Of a DNA stretch of 64,000 bases, positions 2,728-36,783 are shown one piece after another. A program made the translations under genes and the position numbers. The notes beneath the pieces are model-generated. The model was not told where the DNA came from. It worked only from the letters and a program-made list of their open reading frames with translations, and did no database searches. The stretch's first letter is position 1. Every line of letters begins with the position of its first letter. Source of the stretch: Rhodothermales bacterium (GTDB taxonomy: Bacteria > Bacteroidota > Rhodothermia > Rhodothermales > JANQRZ01); assembly GCA_039944855.1 (NCBI GenBank), contig JBDUXZ010000024.1:186001-250000 (forward strand), given 5' to 3'.

Positions 2728-5274
2728 ATGCCTGCTCTCTACCGCTTCACCCTCCTCACCGCGTGCCTGCTGCTCGCGACCGGCCCCGCGCTCGCGCAGC
2801 AACGCGCCGCCGAGCGCCCGGCGACGCAGCGCGCCTCAGACGTCCTCCCGCTCGACCGGATCGCCCGCGTCGAGATGCCCTCGGTCGATAACGACGCGCT
2901 GATCGCGCGCGACGAAGCGACCGCCGCCCGCGCGACGGAGCCCCGCCCGTTCCGCTTCGCCGAGCCGTTCGAGGTAGCCCTCACCACCGGCAGCGCCGGG
3001 ACGTGGGAGACGCTCGACGACGGCACCCGCGTCTGGCGCCTCGTCATCGCCTCCGGCGATGCGTACTCGATCAACCTCGGCTTCAGCCGGTTCCGCCTGC
3101 CCGACGGCGCGGCGCTCTGGCTCTACCCGGCCGGCGAAGCCCCGCATTTCCGCGCCTTCACGGCGGCCGACAACGAGGAGCACGGTGAGCTGTGGTCGCC
3201 GATCATCCGCAGCGATGAGGTCGTCGTCGAACTGAACCTGCCGGCGGCGAAGCCCGGTGCCGAGCCCGACTTCGAACTCGAACTGGCGCAGGTGAACCAT
3301 GCGTACCGCCCGTTCGGCGTGCGCATCGAGACGCCGCAGGATCAGGCCCGCTCCGGCTCCTGCAACGTCGACGTCGTCTGCCCCGAGGGGAACGGCTTCC
3401 GCGACATCATCCGCAGCGTCGGCGCGTACACGCGCGGCGGGGTGGACATCTGCTCGGGCTCGGCGATGAACACCACGGCCGGCGACGGCAGCCCGTACTT
3501 CCTCACGGCCGACCACTGCGGCAACAGCGCGGGCAACGCCCCGAGCGTCGTGATCTACTGGAACTACGAGAACTCGACGTGCCGCCCGCCCGGCTCCCCG
3601 CAGAGCGGCGGCCCCGGCGACGGCCCGCTCGACCAGTTCAGCTCGGGCACGATCTTCCTCGACACCTCCGGCGGCGGCACCTCCGGCGGCCCCGACTGGA
3701 CCCTCCTCGAAACCGACGACCCGATCCCGCCGGAGTACAGCGTGTTCCTCAACGGCTGGGACCGCCGCGATCAGGCGACGAGCAGTGCCATCGCCATCCA
3801 CCACCCGCAGGTGGAGGAGAAGCGGATCTCGTTCGAGAACGATCCGACCTCGATCGACTCCTACCTCGGCAACCCGAACAACCCGGCGAACACCCACATC
3901 AAAGTCACGGACTGGGATCTGGGAACGACCGAAGGCGGCTCGTCGGGCTCGCCGCTCTACAGCCCCGAGAAGCGCGTGATCGGCCAGCTCTCGGGCGGCT
4001 TCGCCTCGTGCACGAGCCAGACGGCGGACTGGTACGGCCGCATGGCCCGTAACATGACGACGGGCCTCGAAGTCTTCCTCGATCCGGGCAACACCGGCGC
4101 CCTCTTCATCGACGGCGCCGAAGCCGGCAACCCGCCCGGCCCGATCCAGCTCCTCGCCGCGATGGACGCCGATCCGATCTCGGTCTCGCCCGGTGGCACG
4201 ACGACGATCTCGGTCGAGGTGTTCAACAATGGGACGGAGACGGGCGAAGCCGTGACGCTCGAGAACGTCCTGCCCGACGACCTCGCCTTCGCGGGCAACC
4301 TCGCGGCGTCGAGCGGCGATGCGTCGGAGAGTGACGGGACGATCTCGTGGACCGTGGACGTCGGCGACGACGGCTCGGAGACGCTCTCGTTCGACGTGAC
4401 GGTGGACGAGAACGCGCCCGGCCTGCCGATCGTGAACACGGCCGTCGTGAACCACCCGAGCCTCAACCTCCCGCTCCAGCCGAGCGTCACGATCGACGTG
4501 TTCGTCGCGCCGGACTTCTTCTACTCCAACGAGACCGGCGTCCCGATCCCCGACAACCAGTGCCCGAGCTTCAGCACGAGCGAGATCGAGGTCACGGACA
4601 CGTTCGAGCCGATCAACATGGAGGTCGGCGTGAACATGCAGCACACGTGGCGGGGCGACCTCATCATCGAGCTGACGAGCCCGGCGGGGACGACCGTCCG
4701 CCTGCTCGAGCGCGTCGGTGGCAGCGCCGACAACCTCGACGCGCTGTTCTCGGACTCCGGTCCATCCAACGCCTTCGGTAGCGGTAATCACGACCCGGCT
4801 GCGCCGTTCTACGACGTGGAAGGCCAAACGCAGGGGGCGAATGTCGGCCCGCTCGCGCTGTTCCTCGGCGAGGACCCGCAGGGCACGTGGACGCTCGGCG
4901 TCTGCGACGGGGCCGGCCAGGACGTGGGGAGCGTCGGGCAGTGGGCGCTCCTGTTTTACACGGAGAACCAGCCGCCCGTCGCGATGGAAGACGCGTCGGC
5001 GATGGCGGCGGCGTACCGGATCGACGCGGCGTACCCGAACCCGTTCGCCGAAGAGTCGGTCGTGCGCTTCGCGGTGCGAGACGCGCAGACCGTCCGGGCC
5101 GAGGTCTACGACGCGCTCGGCCGCCGCGTGCAGGTGCTCCACGACGGCCCCGTCGCGGCCTCGGCCGAGCAGACGCTCCGCATCGATGGGCGCGGGCTCG
5201 CGGGCGGCGTCTACGTCGTCCGGTTCGCAGGCGAGACGTTCACGGCGAGCCAGAAGGTGCTGCTCGTGAAGTAG
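2728..5274 (+). CDS. secreted trypsin-like protease with DUF11, P-domain and T9SS signal
   Basis: The product is 848 residues. A signal peptide covers about 1-23 (ends ALAQ). The peptidase region (about 200-450) resembles lysyl endopeptidase-type S1 proteases: catalytic His263 in TADHC, Asp323 in GGPDWTLLE and Ser406 in GGSSGSP, with several Cys pairs. It is followed by a DUF11-like beta domain (about 475-590), a proprotein-convertase P-domain (about 605-755, HTWRGDLIIELTSP) and a C-terminal sorting domain starting YPNPF near residue 770 and ending in KVLLVK. It should be secreted by T9SS and attached or released at the surface. The start at 2728 gives the signal peptide; the open frame begins at 2602. 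Confidence 0.9.
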   Translation: MPALYRFTLLTACLLLATGPALAQQRAAERPATQRASDVLPLDRIARVEMPSVDNDALIARDEATAARATEPRPFRFAEPFEVALTTGSAGTWETLDDGTRVWRLVIASGDAYSINLGFSRFRLPDGAALWLYPAGEAPHFRAFTAADNEEHGELWSPIIRSDEVVVELNLPAAKPGAEPDFELELAQVNHAYRPFGVRIETPQDQARSGSCNVDVVCPEGNGFRDIIRSVGAYTRGGVDICSGSAMNTTAGDGSPYFLTADHCGNSAGNAPSVVIYWNYENSTCRPPGSPQSGGPGDGPLDQFSSGTIFLDTSGGGTSGGPDWTLLETDDPIPPEYSVFLNGWDRRDQATSSAIAIHHPQVEEKRISFENDPTSIDSYLGNPNNPANTHIKVTDWDLGTTEGGSSGSPLYSPEKRVIGQLSGGFASCTSQTADWYGRMARNMTTGLEVFLDPGNTGALFIDGAEAGNPPGPIQLLAAMDADPISVSPGGTTTISVEVFNNGTETGEAVTLENVLPDDLAFAGNLAASSGDASESDGTISWTVDVGDDGSETLSFDVTVDENAPGLPIVNTAVVNHPSLNLPLQPSVTIDVFVAPDFFYSNETGVPIPDNQCPSFSTSEIEVTDTFEPINMEVGVNMQHTWRGDLIIELTSPAGTTVRLLERVGGSADNLDALFSDSGPSNAFGSGNHDPAAPFYDVEGQTQGANVGPLALFLGEDPQGTWTLGVCDGAGQDVGSVGQWALLFYTENQPPVAMEDASAMAAAYRIDAAYPNPFAEESVVRFAVRDAQTVRAEVYDALGRRVQVLHDGPVAASAEQTLRIDGRGLAGGVYVVRFAGETFTASQKVLLVK

Positions 5275-5289
5275 CGGGCCGTACCCGAC

Positions 5290-5340
5290 GGAAAGATTGA
5301 GGCCCCGACTGCGCGATGCGGTCGGGGCCTCAATCTTTCC
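5290..5340. terminator. bidirectional terminator hairpin
   Basis: A perfect 20-bp inverted repeat (5290-5309 and 5321-5340) with an 11-nt loop sits between two convergent genes. The arms end in GAAAGA and TCTTTC, giving A/U-rich stem bases on both sides, so it can serve both the protease gene and the hydrolase gene. Confidence 0.85.
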
Positions 5341-5352
5341 GCTCTTCCGCCC

Positions 5353-6192
5353 CTAAACGTGCGCGTCGAGCCAGTCGGTGAGGTCGGTGAGGACGCGCTC
5401 GCGGCCGGGCTCGTTGTGGGTCTCATGGTAGAAGCCGTCGTAGAGCGTCAGCGTCTTGTCGTCGGCGGGGGCGCGGTCGTGGAGCAGGCGGCTGCCTTCG
5501 GGGTCGGTGACCTTGTCCGCCGTGCCGTGGTAGAGGTAGAGGGGGAGCGTGAAGGCGTCGGCGTGGGCCTGCACGTGGTCCGTCACGCGGAGGACTTCGG
5601 CTCCGACGCGCGGGCGGATGCCGCCGTGGTAGACGAGCGGGTCCTGTTCGTAGGCGCGGACCACGGCGGGGTCGCGGGAGAGGTCTGCGGTGTCGAGCTT
5701 CGTGGTCGGGAGCTTGGGGACGAAGCGGCTGAGCACGCCGGCCGCTTTCTGCAGGATCGGCGAGAGGTCGGCGGGAATCTTCAGCGCGGCGGAGGAGAGG
5801 ACGAGCCCGGCGAGGCCGTCGGTCCCGCGCTCGGTGACGTAATAGGCCGCGATCGCGCCGCCGAGGGAGTGGCCGTAGAGGAAGAGCGGGAGGCGGGGCG
5901 CGTCGGCGTGGACGTAGTCGAGGAAGAGCGCGAGGTCGTCGGTGTACTCGTCGAACGACTCGACGTAGACGCGGGGCTCGCCCTCGGAGCGGCCGTGGCC
6001 GCGGAGGTCGAAGGCGTGGACGGCGTAGCCGTGGAGCAGGAGGTGGGTGGCGACGTGGGCGTAGCGCCCGCTATGCTCGGCGATGCCGTGGACGAGCGCG
6101 ACGACCGCTTTCGGCCGCCCGCTCGGCGTCCATCGTCGGGTGGCGAGGGTGAGGCCGTCGTCGGTGGTGAGCGTGCTGGCGTCGTGCTGCAT
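5353..6192 (-). CDS. alpha/beta hydrolase, monoacylglycerol-lipase-like
   Basis: The product is 279 residues with no signal peptide. It has the oxyanion-side HG motif (LVHGIAEHSGRY, about 34-44), the nucleophile elbow GHSLGG with Ser109, Asp226 in HGTAD, and His256 in YHETHNE, which complete a serine hydrolase triad. The order and spacing match the Hydrolase_4/monoacylglycerol lipase family, so lipid ester hydrolysis is likely. The ATG at 6192 begins MQHDAS and removes an upstream extension that lacks family features. It converges on the protease gene across a shared terminator. Confidence 0.86.
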   Translation of the reverse strand: MQHDASTLTTDDGLTLATRRWTPSGRPKAVVALVHGIAEHSGRYAHVATHLLLHGYAVHAFDLRGHGRSEGEPRVYVESFDEYTDDLALFLDYVHADAPRLPLFLYGHSLGGAIAAYYVTERGTDGLAGLVLSSAALKIPADLSPILQKAAGVLSRFVPKLPTTKLDTADLSRDPAVVRAYEQDPLVYHGGIRPRVGAEVLRVTDHVQAHADAFTLPLYLYHGTADKVTDPEGSRLLHDRAPADDKTLTLYDGFYHETHNEPGRERVLTDLTDWLDAHV

Positions 6193-27389: not shown

Positions 27390-28199
27390 ATGAGACGCGC
27401 CCGCTACGCCCTCCCGCTGCTCTTCGCTGTGGCGCCGGCGCTCGCCCACGCACAACTGGTGCTCGACAGTGTTCACGTTGAGGTGGCGGACGGCGTGTAT
27501 CCGAGTTACGTCTACTCCGAAGTCACGATCCCCGACACACTGGGGCCGATTCCGCTGGTGCTCGTCGAAGGCGATGGGACGACGGCACCGCCTTCCCACG
27601 GCTGCGACCCCCTCGTTAACGCCGACGAGGTGGCGGACGCCATCGCCCTTGTCGAGCGCGGGACCTGCGCGTTTCTGACTAAGGTGCAACGAGCAGTCGA
27701 CGCCGGGGCCGTGGCTGTGGTCATCGCCCTCAACGGTACGGCCGACCCCGACTACATTGGTCCGCCTGTGCTCTGTGGGGACTGCCCCCCTTGGGAGGCC
27801 GCCGGGCCCTTACTCCTCGTCTCGTACAATAGCGGGCAGGCGATCCTCGCCGAGCTAGCGTCCGGTCCCACAGACGTCACTCTCGTCCCCGTTCGCGTCG
27901 CCTCCCCGGTCGCCGTAGAGGAGACCACGCAGGCGGGGGCCTTCGTGCTGCCCCCGGTCTATCCCAATCCGCTCGCCTCGCACGCGACGATCGGGCTCAA
28001 CCTGCCGACGGCGCAGGCGGTCCGCGTGGCGGTGTTCGACGTGCTCGGGCGCGAGGTCGCCGTGGTGCACGACGGGCCGCTTGCGGCGGGCCGTCACGAC
28101 CTCGCGCTCGACGCCTCGGCGCTGCCGAGCGGGGTGTACATCGTGCGGGTGGAGGCGGGATCAGCGCGGCTCGCGCAGCCGCTCACCGTCGTCCGCTGA
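27390..28199 (+). CDS. secreted PA-domain protein with T9SS signal, paralogue A
   Basis: The product is 269 residues. A signal peptide covers 1-22 (ends AHAQ). A protease-associated (PA) domain follows (about 50-165; [41 protein letters not shown]), then a C-terminal sorting domain from YPNPL near residue 190 to the end. There is no peptidase domain, so it is a PA-only secreted protein. It is a paralogue of the next gene: they share order, length and a nearly identical sorting-domain DNA sequence. Confidence 0.85.
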
Positions 28200-28236
28200 C
28201 GCGCGCCCTCCGAATCCTCCTGAAGGAGTCCATGCC

Positions 28237-29049
28237 ATGAAACCCGGCCGCTACGTCTCGCTGCTCCTTGCCCTCATGCCGGCATTCACGCTTGCGCAGG
28301 AGGTGCCCGACAGCCTCCACGTCGAGGTGGCTGGCGTGGCGTATCCCGCCTACGGTGCTGTCTTCGGGGCGCGATTCTCCGCGGATATGTCTCTCGGTCC
28401 GCTCCCCATCGTACGAGTTGAAGGGACGGGCGAGACAGCACCTCCGTCGGAAGGGTGCGACCCGCTCGTGAATGCCGACGAGGTCGCCGGCAACATCGCC
28501 TTTATTCGTCGTGGACGCTGCTCTTTCGTGGACAAGGTGGAGAATGCCTTGGCAGCCGGGGCGATTGCAGTCGTCGTTTACAACGATGCGTTCGAGCCGG
28601 ATAATGAGTTCATCCTCCCGATGGCTGGAGACTGCGAACCCGACATCTGCTCGATCCCGTCCGCATTCGTCTCGCGCGTTAGCGGAGACGCCATCCTCGA
28701 GGAGATCGCGGCGGGCCCCACGGACGCGACGCTCATCCCCATCCGAATCGCGTCCCCGGTCACCGTTGAGGAGGACACCGAGGCGAGGGCCTTCGTGCTG
28801 CATCCGGTCTATCCCAATCCGCTCGCCTCGCACGCGACGGTTGTGATCAACCTGCCGACGGCGCAGGCGGTCCGCGTAGCGGTGTTCGATTTGCTCGGGC
28901 GGGAGGTGGCAGTGCTCCACGACGGGTCGCTTCCGGCAGGCCCGCATACGCTGACGCTCGATGCGACGCGACTGCCGGCAGGGCTGTACCTCGTCCGGGC
29001 AACGGGCGCGGGGCACCGCGCGACGCGGAAGCTGATGATTACCCGATAG
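28237..29049 (+). CDS. secreted PA-domain protein with T9SS signal, paralogue B
   Basis: The product is 270 residues with the same layout as the gene 37 nt upstream: signal peptide (1-20, ends TLAQ), PA domain ([45 protein letters not shown]) and T9SS sorting domain ([11 protein letters not shown] to KLMITR). An AAGGAG sequence 10-15 nt before the ATG is one of few Shine-Dalgarno-like sites in the window, and it is part of a small CTCC/GGAG hairpin. Tandem duplication is evident; PA-domain halves have diverged more than the C-terminal halves. Confidence 0.85.
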
Positions 29050-31879: not shown

Positions 31880-32581
31880 TCAGCGCACGCGGTCGGCGAC
31901 GAGCGTGCTCACGGCGTTCTGCACCGTGAGCCGCCCGTCGCCGAACGTGAGGAGCACCGAGGGTGTGCCCGCCGCGTCGAGCACCGCGTAGCGGCGGGCG
32001 TCGCCCTCGACCGGGAGCGCCGTCACGCTCGGGAGCACGCCGCGCGTGACGAGGGCGAGGTGCCCGTCGCGCCACTTCAGCTTGAGGACTTCTTCGCCGT
32101 CGGCGAACGTCACGCGGACGAACGTTGCGGCCATCCCGGCGGCCTCGTCCGCGGTGCCGAGCGCGCGGACGGACTGCACGGCGCCGCGCCGATCTGTGAG
32201 GGCGTCGAGGATGCGGGTGAAGTCGCGCGTCCCGGCCTCGCGGCGGTGCTCGGGGAGGGCGGCGGCGAGGCGGTCCGTCGAGCCGGCGAAGGCGTCGCGG
32301 AGGAGGGCTTCGGCGCGGGCGTTGAACGCCGGGTCGCCCGGCGCGTCGGCGAAGGCGTCGAAGGCGGGCTGGCCGGTGAGCGTCAGCACGAGGGCGCGTC
32401 CGTCGCGGACGACGGCGAGCCAGGCATCGGCGGACTCGTAGGCGCCGGGGAGCGGCGCGGCGCTCGGCGCTTCGTCCTGCACGACGAGTGCGGCGACGCG
32501 GAACGAGTCGGTCGGCTGCGCGGAGAGGGCAGCGGGGAAGAGGAAGGCGGCGAGGAGAGCGGCGGAGAGGAGGGAGCGCAT
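31880..32581 (-). CDS. exported hypothetical protein controlled by a TGTCAC array
   Basis: The product is 233 residues with a signal peptide at 1-21 (ends ALSAQP). No family is recognised. The mature protein is alanine/aspartate-rich with alternating helices and a C-terminal beta-rich part (EEVLKLKWRDGHLALVTRGVLPSVTALPVEGDARRYAVLD). It ends one nt from the convergent ppdK stop. A -7 box (TAGCCTGG, 32620-32613) and a six-unit TGTCAC array lie upstream, shared in design with the next two minus-strand promoters. Confidence 0.7.
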   Translation of the reverse strand: MRSLLSAALLAAFLFPAALSAQPTDSFRVAALVVQDEAPSAAPLPGAYESADAWLAVVRDGRALVLTLTGQPAFDAFADAPGDPAFNARAEALLRDAFAGSTDRLAAALPEHRREAGTRDFTRILDALTDRRGAVQSVRALGTADEAAGMAATFVRVTFADGEEVLKLKWRDGHLALVTRGVLPSVTALPVEGDARRYAVLDAAGTPSVLLTFGDGRLTVQNAVSTLVADRVR

Positions 32582-32612
32582 GGCGGCAGCGGGGTTGGGG
32601 TGAGGTTCTGTC

Positions 32613-32698
32613 CCAGGCTACGGAGCCCCCCGGGGCGGGTTGTCACCCGGTCGTCGCGGCCTGTCACGAGGCCGTCGGGAGTTGTCACCGCTTGTCAC
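32613..32698 (-). promoter_or_regulatory. -7 box plus six-unit phased TGTCAC operator array, promoter of the 32581 gene
   Basis: On the plus strand TGTCAC occurs at 32641, 32662, 32683 and 32693, with the degenerate units TCGTCG at 32651 and CCGTCG at 32672. Steps are 10, 11, 10, 11 and 10 bp. A minus-strand box TAGCCTGG (32620-32613) lies 20 bp from the first unit and 32 bp before the start codon. Confidence 0.65.
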
Positions 32699-32722
32699 CC
32701 GCGCCGAGCGGCCGCGCCGGCC

Positions 32723-33733
32723 TCAGCCGTCGAGGCGGAAGAAGGAGCGGAGCCGGTCGATCAGGCCGCCGCCCGACTGCCAGCGGTCGAACGCGGCCTC
32801 GGTCATCACGCCGACGGGGCCGTCGTAAATGCCGCCCTCGTACCCGGCGTCGTAGACCCGGACGACGATCTCGTTCTTTTCGCGGAGTGGGACGTCGTCG
32901 AGCCGGTACGCGCGGAGCGCTTTCCACTCCGTCCCGCGCACGGCCCGCGCGTCCATCCCGCCCGACCCGCCGAGGCGGCGGCCGTTGAGCGTCGCCTCGT
33001 GGAGGTCGTCGATGCGGCCGAGCACGAGCACGAGCGATTCGCTGCGGAGCCGGTCGGGGAGCGTGAACGAGCGGCGGTACCACGCGTAGCCGTCGAGGCG
33101 GGGGAAGCCCTGCGGCTCCCACCGCGCCGGGACCGTCAGCGTGGTCCACCCGCTCCGAGGAAGCGAGCGGGTGTCGTCGCCGGGCCGGAAGTCCCACGCG
33201 CCGGCGAGGTCCACGGCGAGGTCGGGGCCGTTCGTAAGGGCGTAGACGCCGATCCGCCCTTCGAGGAGCCCGCCGTCGAGCCCGTCGTCGTAGACCCGCA
33301 CGGCGACGACGTTCGCGCCCGCGCGGAGGTACTCGGCGGGGACCGGGTAGACGCGGTCCGCGAAGTAGGCCGACTCGTAGCCCGACTCGGGGAACCTGCC
33401 GGTGGAGCCGACGAAGTGCCCGTTCACCCACACCTGATCGGCGTCGTCGACGCGGCCGAGGTGGAGGTAGAGCGGGCGGTCGAGGTCGCGCTTCGAGAGC
33501 CCGAAAGTCCGGCGGTACCACGCGGTCCCGTCGTAGCCCCAGAACCCCTCGTCCTCCCACGCGGCGGGCACGGAAATCGACTCCCAGGCCTCGTCGTCGT
33601 AGCCGGCGCGGGCGCGGTCGAGGTCGTCGCCGAGGTGGAAGCGCCACGCACCGCGGAGGTCCACGACGCGCTCCCACGCCGGGTCGGCATCGGCGGCGGG
33701 AAACAGGGCGAGAGCGAGGAGGAGCAGGAGCAT
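32723..33733 (-). CDS. secreted tandem GH2-type jelly-roll protein without catalytic domain
   Basis: The product is 336 residues with a hydrophobic N-terminus (1-17, likely signal). Two consecutive galactose-binding-like domains of the glycosyl hydrolase 2 sugar-binding type are seen (about 22-165 and 170-310), each with a WYRR(T/S)F core, an LHLGR(V/I)DD-type loop and VRVYD(D/A)G. No TIM barrel follows, so it is a carbohydrate-binding or adaptor protein rather than a beta-galactosidase. A short helix with RLRSFFRLDG ends the protein. Its promoter carries the same TGTCAC array as its neighbours. Confidence 0.82.
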   Translation of the reverse strand: MLLLLLALALFPAADADPAWERVVDLRGAWRFHLGDDLDRARAGYDDEAWESISVPAAWEDEGFWGYDGTAWYRRTFGLSKRDLDRPLYLHLGRVDDADQVWVNGHFVGSTGRFPESGYESAYFADRVYPVPAEYLRAGANVVAVRVYDDGLDGGLLEGRIGVYALTNGPDLAVDLAGAWDFRPGDDTRSLPRSGWTTLTVPARWEPQGFPRLDGYAWYRRSFTLPDRLRSESLVLVLGRIDDLHEATLNGRRLGGSGGMDARAVRGTEWKALRAYRLDDVPLREKNEIVVRVYDAGYEGGIYDGPVGVMTEAAFDRWQSGGGLIDRLRSFFRLDG

Positions 33734-33758: not shown

Positions 33759-33835
33759 TCAAGCTAGTCGGTGCGCGCGGCGGCTTTGTCACGAGCCCGT
33801 CGCGAGGTGTCACCGTCTGTCACGGCATCGGTCAC
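33759..33835 (-). promoter_or_regulatory. -7 box plus phased TGTCAC operator array, promoter of the 33733 gene
   Basis: TGTCAC at 33787, 33808 and 33818, CCGTCG at 33797 and GGTCAC at 33830 follow steps of 10, 11, 10 and 12 bp. The minus-strand box TAGCTTGA (33766-33759) lies 20 bp from the first unit, the same gap as at the 32581 promoter, and 26 bp before the start codon. Confidence 0.65.
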
Positions 33836-34536
33836 GGGACGAGCTTGTAGCCGACGCCGTGGACGGTGAGGAGGTGGCGCGGGCGCGACGGGTCGGGCTC
33901 CAGCTTTTGCCGCAGCTTGAGGACGAAGTTGTCGACGGTCCGCGTCGTCGGCTGGTCCTCGTAGCCCCACACCTCGGAGAGGAGGTCGTCGCGGCTGACG
34001 GCGGCGTGGGGGCGCGCGGCGAGGTAGCGGAGGACTTCGAGTTCGAGGTGCGTCATCGGCACATCCGCGCCGTCGCGCGTGGCCGTGTGCGTGCGGAAGT
34101 CGACGGCGAGCCGGCCGAGCTGTGTCGGCCCATCGGCAGCGGGCGCGTCGGGCGCGCCGCGGCGGAGGACGGCTTTGATGCGGGCGAGGAGTTCGCGGAG
34201 GCTGAACGGCTTGACCACGTAGTCGTCGGCGCCGAGCTCGAGGCCGAGCACCTTGTCGAACTCCTCGCCTTTCGCCGTGAGGAAGATGATCGGCGTCGTG
34301 ACGCCCTCGCGCCGGGCGAGCTTGCAGACGTCGAGGCCGGAGCGACGCGGCATCATCACGTCGAGGAGGACGAGGTCGTACGCGCCGGCGAGCAGCTTCC
34401 GCAAGCCTTCCTCGCCGTCGGCGGCTTCGTCGACGGTGTAGCCCTCGAACTCCAGGTTGTCGCGGAGGCCGAGGCGCATCGCGGGCTCGTCTTCGACGAC
34501 GAGGAGGTGGGGAGGTCGGTCGGGGGCGTCGGTCAT
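33832..34536 (-). CDS. OmpR-family response regulator
   Basis: The product is 234 residues. Receiver domain: acidic pair in VVEDEP, phosphoacceptor Asp59 in LVLLDVMMP, Thr in FLTAKG and Lys in VVKPF. The C-terminal winged helix (about 130-234) has the LTHLE-like MTHLELEVLRYLAARP and TRTVDNFVLKLRQKLE, with VHGVGYKL at the end. OmpR-family regulators bind short direct repeats at about 11-bp spacing, as the three TGTCAC arrays around this gene show. It follows the kinase gene by 10 nt and is cotranscribed with it. Confidence 0.95.
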   Translation of the reverse strand: MTDAPDRPPHLLVVEDEPAMRLGLRDNLEFEGYTVDEAADGEEGLRKLLAGAYDLVLLDVMMPRRSGLDVCKLARREGVTTPIIFLTAKGEEFDKVLGLELGADDYVVKPFSLRELLARIKAVLRRGAPDAPAADGPTQLGRLAVDFRTHTATRDGADVPMTHLELEVLRYLAARPHAAVSRDDLLSEVWGYEDQPTTRTVDNFVLKLRQKLEPDPSRPRHLLTVHGVGYKLVP

Positions 34537-34546
34537 CGGGCGGGCG

Positions 34547-36190
34547 TCAGGCGGTGGGGAGGGCGGGGACGGCGTGCGGCACGGGCGCGGCGGGGAGCGC
34601 GAGGCGGAACGTGCTTCCGTGACCGGGCGCGCTGCGGACGGTGACGCGCCCGCCCTGCGCTTCGGCGAGGTGCTTCACGAGGGCGAGCCCGAGCCCGGTC
34701 CCCTTCGCGTTGTGGACGGCGCCCGTCGGCACCCGGTAGAACTCGTCGAAGATCCGCTTCTGCTCGCGGAGTGCGATGCCGGGGCCGCGGTCCTGCACCT
34801 CGACCCACACCGCGCCGTCGTCCGTGCCCGTGGCGACGGTGAGGTGCCGCTCGGCCTCGCTGTACTTCACCGCGTTGTCGATGAGGTTGAGGAGTGCCTC
34901 GCTCGTCGCCTCGCGGTCGCCGAGGGCGACGGGCGGCGGTTCGGCGAGCGCGGAGTCGACGGCGAACCCCTCGCTGTCGAGGTGGAAGCGGTAGAGGGCG
35001 AGGGCGTCGGCGGCGAGGGCGTTGAGGTCGAACGGCGCGGCGGCGACCTCCTTCCGCCCGGACTCGATGCGGGAGAAGTTGAGGATGTTGTTGACGAGGC
35101 GGGTGAGGCGGCCGGCCTCCTGCGCGATCGTCCGCACGTAGTCACGCTGCCGCGCCTCGGGCACGCGGCCGAGTTCGAGCGTCTCGGCGTACATCCGGAT
35201 GAGCGCGAGCGGCGTCCGCAGCTCGTGGCTGACGTTTTGGACGAAGACGGCCTTCGCCTGCCCGAGCTCGACCTGCCGGCGGATCGTGCGGAAGAGGAAC
35301 GCAGCGCCGACGGCGAGCGCGAGGGCGAGGAGCCCGACGAGCAGCAGGCTCCGCTGCGTCCGGTCGGCGACGATCGATCCGATCGTCGTGCCTGCGGGGC
35401 GGATGCGGAGGGTGGCGTTGGGGAACACCCAGAGGGCCCGCTCTTGCACGTCCGGCCCGCCGAGCAAGTGGGCGGCGGCGGTCGTCGGCGGGCCGCCGAA
35501 GCCGTCGCTGAGCGGGACGCCGGCCGTCGCGGGGGCCTCGGCGTAGCGCACCTCGTCGTCGACGGCGATGCCGACGACGAAGTGCTCCTTCGCCACCTCG
35601 CGCAGCTTCGGCGTCAGTTCGGACTCGATGCAGGTCCACGCGTCGAGGACGAAGCCCGCGACGCGGAGGTCGTTGCCGGAGCCGGTCACGAAGGCGAGCG
35701 CGACCGTCGCGTTCGGGTGTTCGGCGTAGAGCGGGATCGGGAGGAGGCGGCGGTAGCCCGCCGTGCGGTCGGCGAGGAGGCGGCGGGCGTGCGTCGGGCG
35801 GAGGGCGAGGGCCCGCTCCACGCTCGGCACCCCGCCGCGCGCCGCACGGCGTACCGCCTCGGGCGAGGCGGCGAGGGCCTGCAACGCCGCAGCCGTGTCG
35901 GCGACGAACGCGGCCTCTACCGAGGGATGCGCCGCGACGAACTCGGCGAGCGCGGCGTCGGCGTCGGCGCCGTCGGCGAGGCGGCGGCCGAGGTCGTCGG
36001 CCCACTCGTTCGCCACGGTCCACACGTGCTGGTTGATGCCGGAGAGGACGGTCTCGACGTGGCGGTCGTAGATCTCACGCAGCACCCGCTCGTTCTCGCC
36101 GAGCGCGGCGAGCTCCGCGAACGCCACCACGCCCACAGGCACGGCGACGAAGACGAGGAGGAGCAGGCCGATCTTGCGGAGTGGGGGCAC
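34547..36190 (-). CDS. sensor histidine kinase, partner of the OmpR-type regulator
   Basis: The product is 547 residues. Membrane segments at about 8-28 and 282-300 flank a large periplasmic sensor (about 30-280) that I cannot assign. HisKA has SHELRTPL with His322; the ATPase has NLIDNAVKYSEAE, DRGPGI and GTGLGLALVKHLAEAQGG. Start is GTG at 36190; a consensus -7 box TAAGTTTG lies 23 bp upstream. It is the first gene of the operon, before the regulator, the reverse of the usual order, and its promoter has a TGTCAC array, so autoregulation is likely. Confidence 0.93.
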   Translation of the reverse strand: MPPLRKIGLLLLVFVAVPVGVVAFAELAALGENERVLREIYDRHVETVLSGINQHVWTVANEWADDLGRRLADGADADAALAEFVAAHPSVEAAFVADTAAALQALAASPEAVRRAARGGVPSVERALALRPTHARRLLADRTAGYRRLLPIPLYAEHPNATVALAFVTGSGNDLRVAGFVLDAWTCIESELTPKLREVAKEHFVVGIAVDDEVRYAEAPATAGVPLSDGFGGPPTTAAAHLLGGPDVQERALWVFPNATLRIRPAGTTIGSIVADRTQRSLLLVGLLALALAVGAAFLFRTIRRQVELGQAKAVFVQNVSHELRTPLALIRMYAETLELGRVPEARQRDYVRTIAQEAGRLTRLVNNILNFSRIESGRKEVAAAPFDLNALAADALALYRFHLDSEGFAVDSALAEPPPVALGDREATSEALLNLIDNAVKYSEAERHLTVATGTDDGAVWVEVQDRGPGIALREQKRIFDEFYRVPTGAVHNAKGTGLGLALVKHLAEAQGGRVTVRSAPGHGSTFRLALPAAPVPHAVPALPTA

Positions 36191-36212: not shown

Positions 36213-36267
36213 CAAACTTAGCACGGAAGCGCGTCGCCCGGCGTCACGCGATGTCACGAGTTGTCAC
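36213..36267 (-). promoter_or_regulatory. -7 box plus phased TGTCAC operator array, promoter of the kinase-regulator operon
   Basis: The minus-strand box TAAGTTTG (36220-36213) is an exact TAnnTTTG match. CGTCAC at 36242 and TGTCAC at 36252 and 36262 follow, with steps of 10 bp; a weak GCGTCG unit is at 36231. The gap from box to the first strong unit is 21 bp. Confidence 0.6.
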
Positions 36268-36366: not shown

Positions 36367-36783
36367 ATGAGACTGCCCGTGATACCGCTCTTCCTGCTCC
36401 TCCTTTCGTGGACCGCCTGCGACAGCGCGCCCGACCGGGACACGTTCCGCGTCACGCTCTCGGACGCGAGCGGGGAGGCCGTATACATCGGCGAACTCGA
36501 ACTCGCGATCGAGCCCCCGGGGCCGGCGGATGAGCCGGGCGAGGTAACCGGCCGCTGGCAACTCGACGGCGTGGGTGGGACGCCCGACCCGACGCCAACC
36601 TCGGGTGCCGTGGTCGGAAGTACGGCGGAGGGGACCATCAACTTCGTGCTGGACATGGACGCCTCCGACACCGGGTTTTTGCTGTGGGGGCGGTACGAGG
36701 TCGACCAGATGACGGGGACGTGGGAGACGATCACGATCGCCGGGCCGGTTCCGAGCGGCACGTTCGAGGCCGTGCGCGAGTAG
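36367..36783 (+). CDS. small lipoprotein of unknown function
   Basis: The product is 138 residues. The signal ends LLLLSWTAC, with Cys18 as the lipid anchor. The mature part alternates beta strands (FRVTLSDASGEAVYIGELELAIEP, GRWQLDGVG, TINFVLDMD, LLWGRYEVDQMTGTWETITIAG) and resembles small beta-sandwich lipoproteins of Bacteroidota. It is divergent from the kinase operon and its start is 177 bp from that of the kinase, so the TGTCAC array lies between them. Confidence 0.75.
   Translation: MRLPVIPLFLLLLSWTACDSAPDRDTFRVTLSDASGEAVYIGELELAIEPPGPADEPGEVTGRWQLDGVGGTPDPTPTSGAVVGSTAEGTINFVLDMDASDTGFLLWGRYEVDQMTGTWETITIAGPVPSGTFEAVRE

Follow-up and report, generated by a model that had tools for sequence, protein, structure and literature searches.

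Two exported proteins as the probable private output of an OmpR-type two-component system in Rhodothermales and related bacteria

Two exported proteins encoded next to a two-component system in a Rhodothermales bacterium very probably (roughly 85%, judging from gene and promoter sequences) represent the private, activated output of a dedicated signalling module. That they would be a private output had been proposed from the letters of the window (the 64,000-nucleotide stretch of DNA analysed here). This proposal is now strongly supported by co-conservation of the genes, by exclusivity of the promoter arrays that precede them, by co-occurrence of array and sensor across genomes, and by blind prediction of distant targets.

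The locus consists of four genes on the minus strand. A sensor histidine kinase (547 aa, GTG start; 34547..36190) is followed by an OmpR/PhoB-type response regulator (234 aa; 33832..34536), and directly downstream of these lie the genes for GH2N, an exported 336-aa protein with two tandem GH2-N-like jelly-roll domains (32723..33733), and for EXP, an exported 233-aa protein with a hydrophobic N-terminus (31880..32581). Both of the latter open reading frames lie where the original prediction had put them, directly downstream of the regulator gene. Pfam matches give the system the make-up of the OmpR family, with a receiver (Response_reg) and a winged-helix Trans_reg_C domain in the regulator, and HisKA and HATPase_c in the kinase. 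According to Pfam and an AF2 model the kinase is ordered as a transmembrane helix, an extracytoplasmic sensor (about residues 31-270), a second transmembrane helix, HisKA and HATPase_c. The sensor had no Pfam domain match at E up to 1, Cache profiles included; EXP had no match in Pfam (E up to 1) or NCBIfam, and the regulator fell below every NCBIfam cut-off shown. GH2N had been described as a tandem jelly-roll protein, and indeed Glyco_hydro_2_N (E 1.8e-16; PF02837, 61 bits against a cut-off of 28) matches it in two stretches, with no catalytic domain among the matches; the two N-type domains fill the 336 residues, and the catalytic TIM barrel is absent.

The array promoter reported before GH2N and EXP proved to be real, and a further array was found before the kinase gene. 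All three arrays read on the minus strand. Before EXP (32641..32698) the coding strand shows TGACA 116, 106, 85 and 64 bp ahead of the start codon; before GH2N (33787..33835) TGAC appears at 101, 89, 79 and 58 bp, the distal half-site overlapping the stop codon of the regulator; and before the kinase (36242..36267) three half-sites stand at 76, 66 and 56 bp. On the plus strand these appear as TGTCAC at 32641, 32662, 32683 and 32693 (EXP), at 33787, 33808 and 33818 (GH2N), and at 36252 and 36262 (kinase), with CGTCAC at 36242. Half-sites in the window are spaced by 10 or 21, with one spacing of 12 in the GH2N array, and no array lies directly before the regulator gene. Each array is followed on the same strand by a -7-like element: TAGCCTGG (32613..32620), 25 bp from the start of the last half-site and 39 bp before the EXP start codon; TAGCTTGA (33759..33766), 25 bp from the last half-site start and 33 bp before the GH2N start codon; and TAAGTTTG (36213..36220), 26 bp from the last half-site start and 30 bp before the kinase start codon. 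Divergent from the kinase gene is a lipoprotein-like 138-aa ORF (36367-36783, plus strand) that has no family match and was not found in the relatives examined. It was set aside as a target of the kinase array, since one relative (L024) keeps the array before the kinase and has a different neighbour there.

The arrays are nearly exclusive to this locus. In the 4.6-Mb genome from which the window comes, TGTCACN4TGTCAC has three exact copies, before the kinase, GH2N and EXP genes; with one mismatch allowed five more places appear (the kinase array itself and four elsewhere), and the reversed control gives three matches. The general array pattern matches twice in this genome, both times at the locus, and its control not at all. 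Across relatives the array follows the consensus TGACA-N5-TKACA-N4-TTTAC-N7-TGACA, found at 17 or more of 20 letters in 68 of 85 loci, a count in which some loci are one contig counted twice. It is kept across phyla before GH2N or a small secreted gene, and 57 of the 62 arrays with at least 18 of 20 letters point directly at one of these; the other five were scored as "far" where ORF calling had missed or mis-started GH2N, the match to which begins about 100-175 bp past the array start. Outside Rhodothermales, TGTCAC ranked first among 180 half-site permutations for spaced pairs upstream of module genes.

The distance from array to promoter is also conserved: of 129 distinct arrays, 77 have TAnn[TC]T at offset 56, as compared to a median of 1 at other offsets. 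The -7 element of Bacteroidota promoters is TAnnTTTG. The motif downstream of the arrays appears to match this element, and the last half-site would occupy the -33 place. Such a fixed geometry between array and -7 element suggests that the arrays serve to activate transcription.

Within the order, the kinase sensor is found in 8 of 114 genomes, and an EXP profile built from five of the eight retrieves these same eight (E 7e-7 or lower), with weak matches (E 8.5e-4 to 7.3e-3) in three other genomes of the order. Regulator and GH2N adjoin the kinase in each of the first five relatives examined and in both later ones. EXP lies beside the locus in four of the five first relatives and in G003, and on another contig in the fragmented assembly of G072; a congener of a positive genome (G002) has neither sensor nor EXP. 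Co-conservation of the four genes, one of the two points on which the original prediction was to stand or fall, was looked for across relatives and found. In Roseithermus EXP is absent from the locus, where an alpha/beta-hydrolase-like ORF (identified by eye) follows GH2N. The gene for an exported protein of 327 aa that comprises two EXP-like units (E 4e-17; 96% probability) lies 1.49 Mb away behind an array, and the same gene was found by an EXP profile built without that genome.

Beyond the order, a search with a GH2N alignment gave 455 relatives in named genomes, and we studied the loci of the best 80 of these, which belong to Bacteroidota, Ignavibacteria, Calditrichota, KSB1 and other groups, keeping all 80 in the synteny count, misses included. 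The regulator (E <1e-60) was present at 65 of these 80 loci, the kinase at 62 and its sensor part at 59, and in five of the 15 loci without regulator GH2N starts less than 1.2 kb from a contig end. For 17 genomes with no clear kinase or regulator at the GH2N locus, the sensor was found elsewhere in 13 and was absent in four. A small secreted protein often sits between regulator and GH2N, and these proteins fall into separate families: HEAT-like at 24 of 85 loci, beta-sandwich-like at six, another family at four Labilibaculum-type loci, and, once (L048), an aspartyl-protease-like protein. EXP is just the Rhodothermales version of a small partner, in a slot that unrelated small secreted proteins fill elsewhere.

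Sensor and array also co-occur at the level of whole genomes. Among 395 sampled genomes of the phylum, 39 gave strong sensor matches (E 4.3e-58 or better) and five gave weak ones; the array was present in 32 of the 39 strong-sensor genomes as compared to 7 of the 356 others (Fisher p 1.6e-33, with genomes treated as unrelated). These seven genomes hold eight matches, which are at chance level because all of them carry two mismatches and the 395-genome scan returned ten reversed-control matches. None of the eight precedes GH2N or the small secreted family in the reading direction; one of them (L275) lies opposite a distant GH2-like gene. In seven of the 39 strong-sensor genomes no array appears even with two mismatches allowed, perhaps due to a diverged site. 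Four of the seven form one family (L243-L246, in G165, G169, G161 and G157), which has kept kinase and regulator, and two genomes of this family carry GH2N elsewhere (L085, L099). A kinase-first sample, which partly overlaps the GH2N-derived set and is not fully independent of it, covered 36 of the 39 strong loci and four of the five weak ones, the other three strong loci being Rhodothermales examined already. The regulator was found in 39 of these 40; GH2N and array were both present in 21 of the 36 strong loci and both absent from the stretch in 15, and one weak locus had GH2N alone.

The availability of a defined array allowed us to search for distant targets. In 32 genomes there were 46 array matches and no reversed-control match; 39 were on contigs of known loci, and the seven elsewhere precede the Roseithermus EXP gene, four HEAT-like genes, one MacB/FtsX permease pair and one SusD-type region, the last of which looks like chance. 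In one Calditrichaceae genome (G140) three scattered HEAT-like genes (L149, L150, L151) each have a mismatch-free array, besides the main locus. The MacB/FtsX-like permease pair (L152, G142:C200; genes 3251-5761) follows an array at 3165 with no mismatch and is the only clear target other than a secreted protein, indicating that the output does not always consist of secreted proteins alone. The 15 strong-sensor genomes without GH2N in the stretch yielded 17 array matches in nine genomes, with one reversed-control match. All 17 of these distant arrays precede GH2N or a member of the small secreted family, and their contigs, judged by length, are different from those on which the motif had been defined. 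Another three distant arrays, with no more than one mismatch, lie ahead of two HEAT-like members and one small exported 197-aa protein.

We propose the following circuit. The kinase would sense conditions outside the cytoplasm through its sensor, and the phosphorylated regulator would bind the tandem TGACA half-sites, which lie about one helical turn apart. With the last half-site in the -33 place of a Bacteroidota promoter, the bound regulator would activate transcription of GH2N and of its small exported partner (EXP in Rhodothermales, mostly HEAT-like elsewhere), and in Rhodothermales the kinase gene itself would be switched on too. Most likely, both products would then stay in the periplasm, where they might report on or protect the envelope, and would feed back on the kinase. 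CpxP, LuxP and YycH/YycI, which are extracytoplasmic accessory proteins of kinases, act in such a manner.

The sensor model (AF2; pLDDT 89.2, 53 sequences) has a predicted two-lobed, tandem-Cache-like fold, resembling KinD (4jgo; Z 11.7, rmsd 5.1, 188 aligned), Tlp3 (Z 10.7) and LuxQ (3c30; Z 10.4, rmsd 4.1, 193 aligned), in a comparison where long-helix models give middling Z easily. Structure prediction had been suggested for the 233-aa protein, and the AF2 model of EXP (pLDDT 84.5, 8 sequences; first 40 residues unreliable) contains an NTF2-like/DUF3887-like domain (about 83-182) inserted between strands of a small beta-barrel. Residues 83-180 match the DUF3887 protein 4hyz (Z 11.2, rmsd 2.7, 98 aligned; Foldseek E 0.059), and the barrel resembles PliC (4mir, Z 7.8) and part of a penicillin-binding-protein homologue (2qmi, Z 9.0). 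The predicted folds of EXP and sensor point to no ligand.

GH2N and EXP are probably periplasmic, alongside the sensor, because in the window both are without the type IX sorting domain that is present in two nearby proteins, and because GH2N relatives end a median of 29 residues past the last domain motif. The two nearby proteins are tandem paralogues (27393-28199 and 28234-29049, plus strand), both of which combine a PA domain with a type IX secretion C-terminal sorting domain. Lipid anchoring was rejected as a general trait of GH2N, with lipoboxes in just 6 of 93.

It had been suggested that the secreted proteins work with the kinase's sensor and that a carbohydrate or surface is what is sensed, and both may be so. 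The main rival differs from the proposed circuit solely in the last step: the secreted proteins would be plain effectors, such as periplasmic glycan binders or envelope protectants, which never touch the kinase, and the loop would close through the signal. Contact is not required to explain exclusivity and co-inheritance, different lineages fill the partner slot with non-homologous proteins, and among solved structures GH2N is closest to sialate O-acetylesterases (7kmm, E 1.4e-26), followed by GH2 enzymes. Co-evolution is not specific to the sensor either. In the 51 of 82 loci with usable kinase, regulator and GH2N genes, the partial r of GH2N co-variation is 0.44 for the kinase core and lower, 0.27, for the sensor, and contact with the sensor is therefore not singled out; this distance-matrix comparison reflects common inheritance and not sensor contact. 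On the other hand, plain effectors would lead one to expect an enzyme or transporter in the regulon, of which one case was found (the permease pair), and GH2N accompanies the kinase across groups. We give plain effectors a little under an even chance, and consider the choice between them and feedback on the kinase to be close to even.

More tentatively, the catalytically empty tandem jelly-roll protein could be a glycan-binding co-receptor of the tandem-Cache kinase, with an exchangeable small partner (HEAT-like, NTF2-like, others), across the Fibrobacteres-Chlorobi-Bacteroidetes group, in a circuit regulating almost only its own sensor parts. We regard this as a rather unlikely extension; a match to a jelly-roll family would not by itself establish sugar binding by GH2N.

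The module shares its domain make-up, and tandem direct half-sites about one turn apart, with PhoB/WalR/MtrA regulators and their PhoR/WalK kinases. In PhoB promoters the proximal site replaces the -35/-33 element, and the proximal site of the module likewise lies in that place. The system might then be a local PhoB-PhoR or WalR-WalK, the arrays being Pho or Wal boxes and GH2N and EXP minor members of a large regulon. Its best NCBIfam models are indeed of the MtrA, YycF/WalR, RpaB, PhoB and PnpS/PhoR/WalK class, and TGTCA resembles the half-sites of Pho and Wal. However, the scores are far below the curated cut-offs, both for PhoB-PhoR (PhoB 192.3 against 296.2; Bacteroidota PhoB NF053854, 191 against 270; PhoR 181.3 against 334.2) and for WalR-WalK (YycF 203.8 against 340; WalK 162.1 against 725), and in genome scans hardly any array precedes anything other than GH2N and small secreted genes. 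A phosphate or cell-wall regulon was rejected in view of these scores and array targets, and we find a local version of either system highly improbable. The module departs from this class in its tandem-Cache-like sensor and in a regulon almost restricted to extracytoplasmic proteins.

A chance or dispersed-repeat origin of the arrays would be conceivable for short half-sites in a G+C-rich genome (0.69). At the sequence level it is refuted by the permutation, pattern and reversed-pattern controls, the fixed -7 distance and the cross-phylum conservation, and can be dismissed.

Among known systems, LuxQ-LuxP, CpxA-CpxP and WalK-YycH/YycI likewise combine an extracytoplasmic-sensor kinase with exported proteins encoded alongside, and the sensor model itself resembles LuxQ. 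In contrast to LuxP, CpxP and YycH/YycI, GH2N is a jelly-roll protein, the small partner varies by lineage, and contact with the kinase is putative. The jelly-roll domains of GH2N are related to those of GH2 glycosidases and sialate O-acetylesterases, but GH2N has two such domains and neither a TIM barrel nor an esterase domain among its matches. Extracytoplasmic sensing with a carbohydrate-type domain nearby is shared with the hybrid systems of Bacteroides polysaccharide loci, whereas kinase and regulator of the module are separate genes and no SusC/SusD pair is among the accepted targets. We found no description of the module in the open-access literature (most subscription papers and all bioRxiv preprints were outside the scope of this search), and passages of PMC5342196 and PMC7409140 are not about it. 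It is apparently an undescribed two-component system of the OmpR type, unusual in that its regulon is extracytoplasmic and nearly private.

Roughly a tenth of the sampled genomes of the phylum (39 of 395) carry the module, which recurs in several deep bacterial groups. Its promoter architecture is base-precise and its output tiny, and the array reveals this output in a genome, and the non-homologous partners in one slot offer a natural series for the evolution of kinases and exported partner proteins. For the 455 relatives carrying a "GH2 sugar-binding domain", function becomes testable, and many would be parts of signalling loops rather than enzymes. Two tandem jelly-roll relatives, L113 (Verrucomicrobiae DG1235) and L116, come from genomes without the kinase sensor, and may reflect transfer, mis-binning or a different use.
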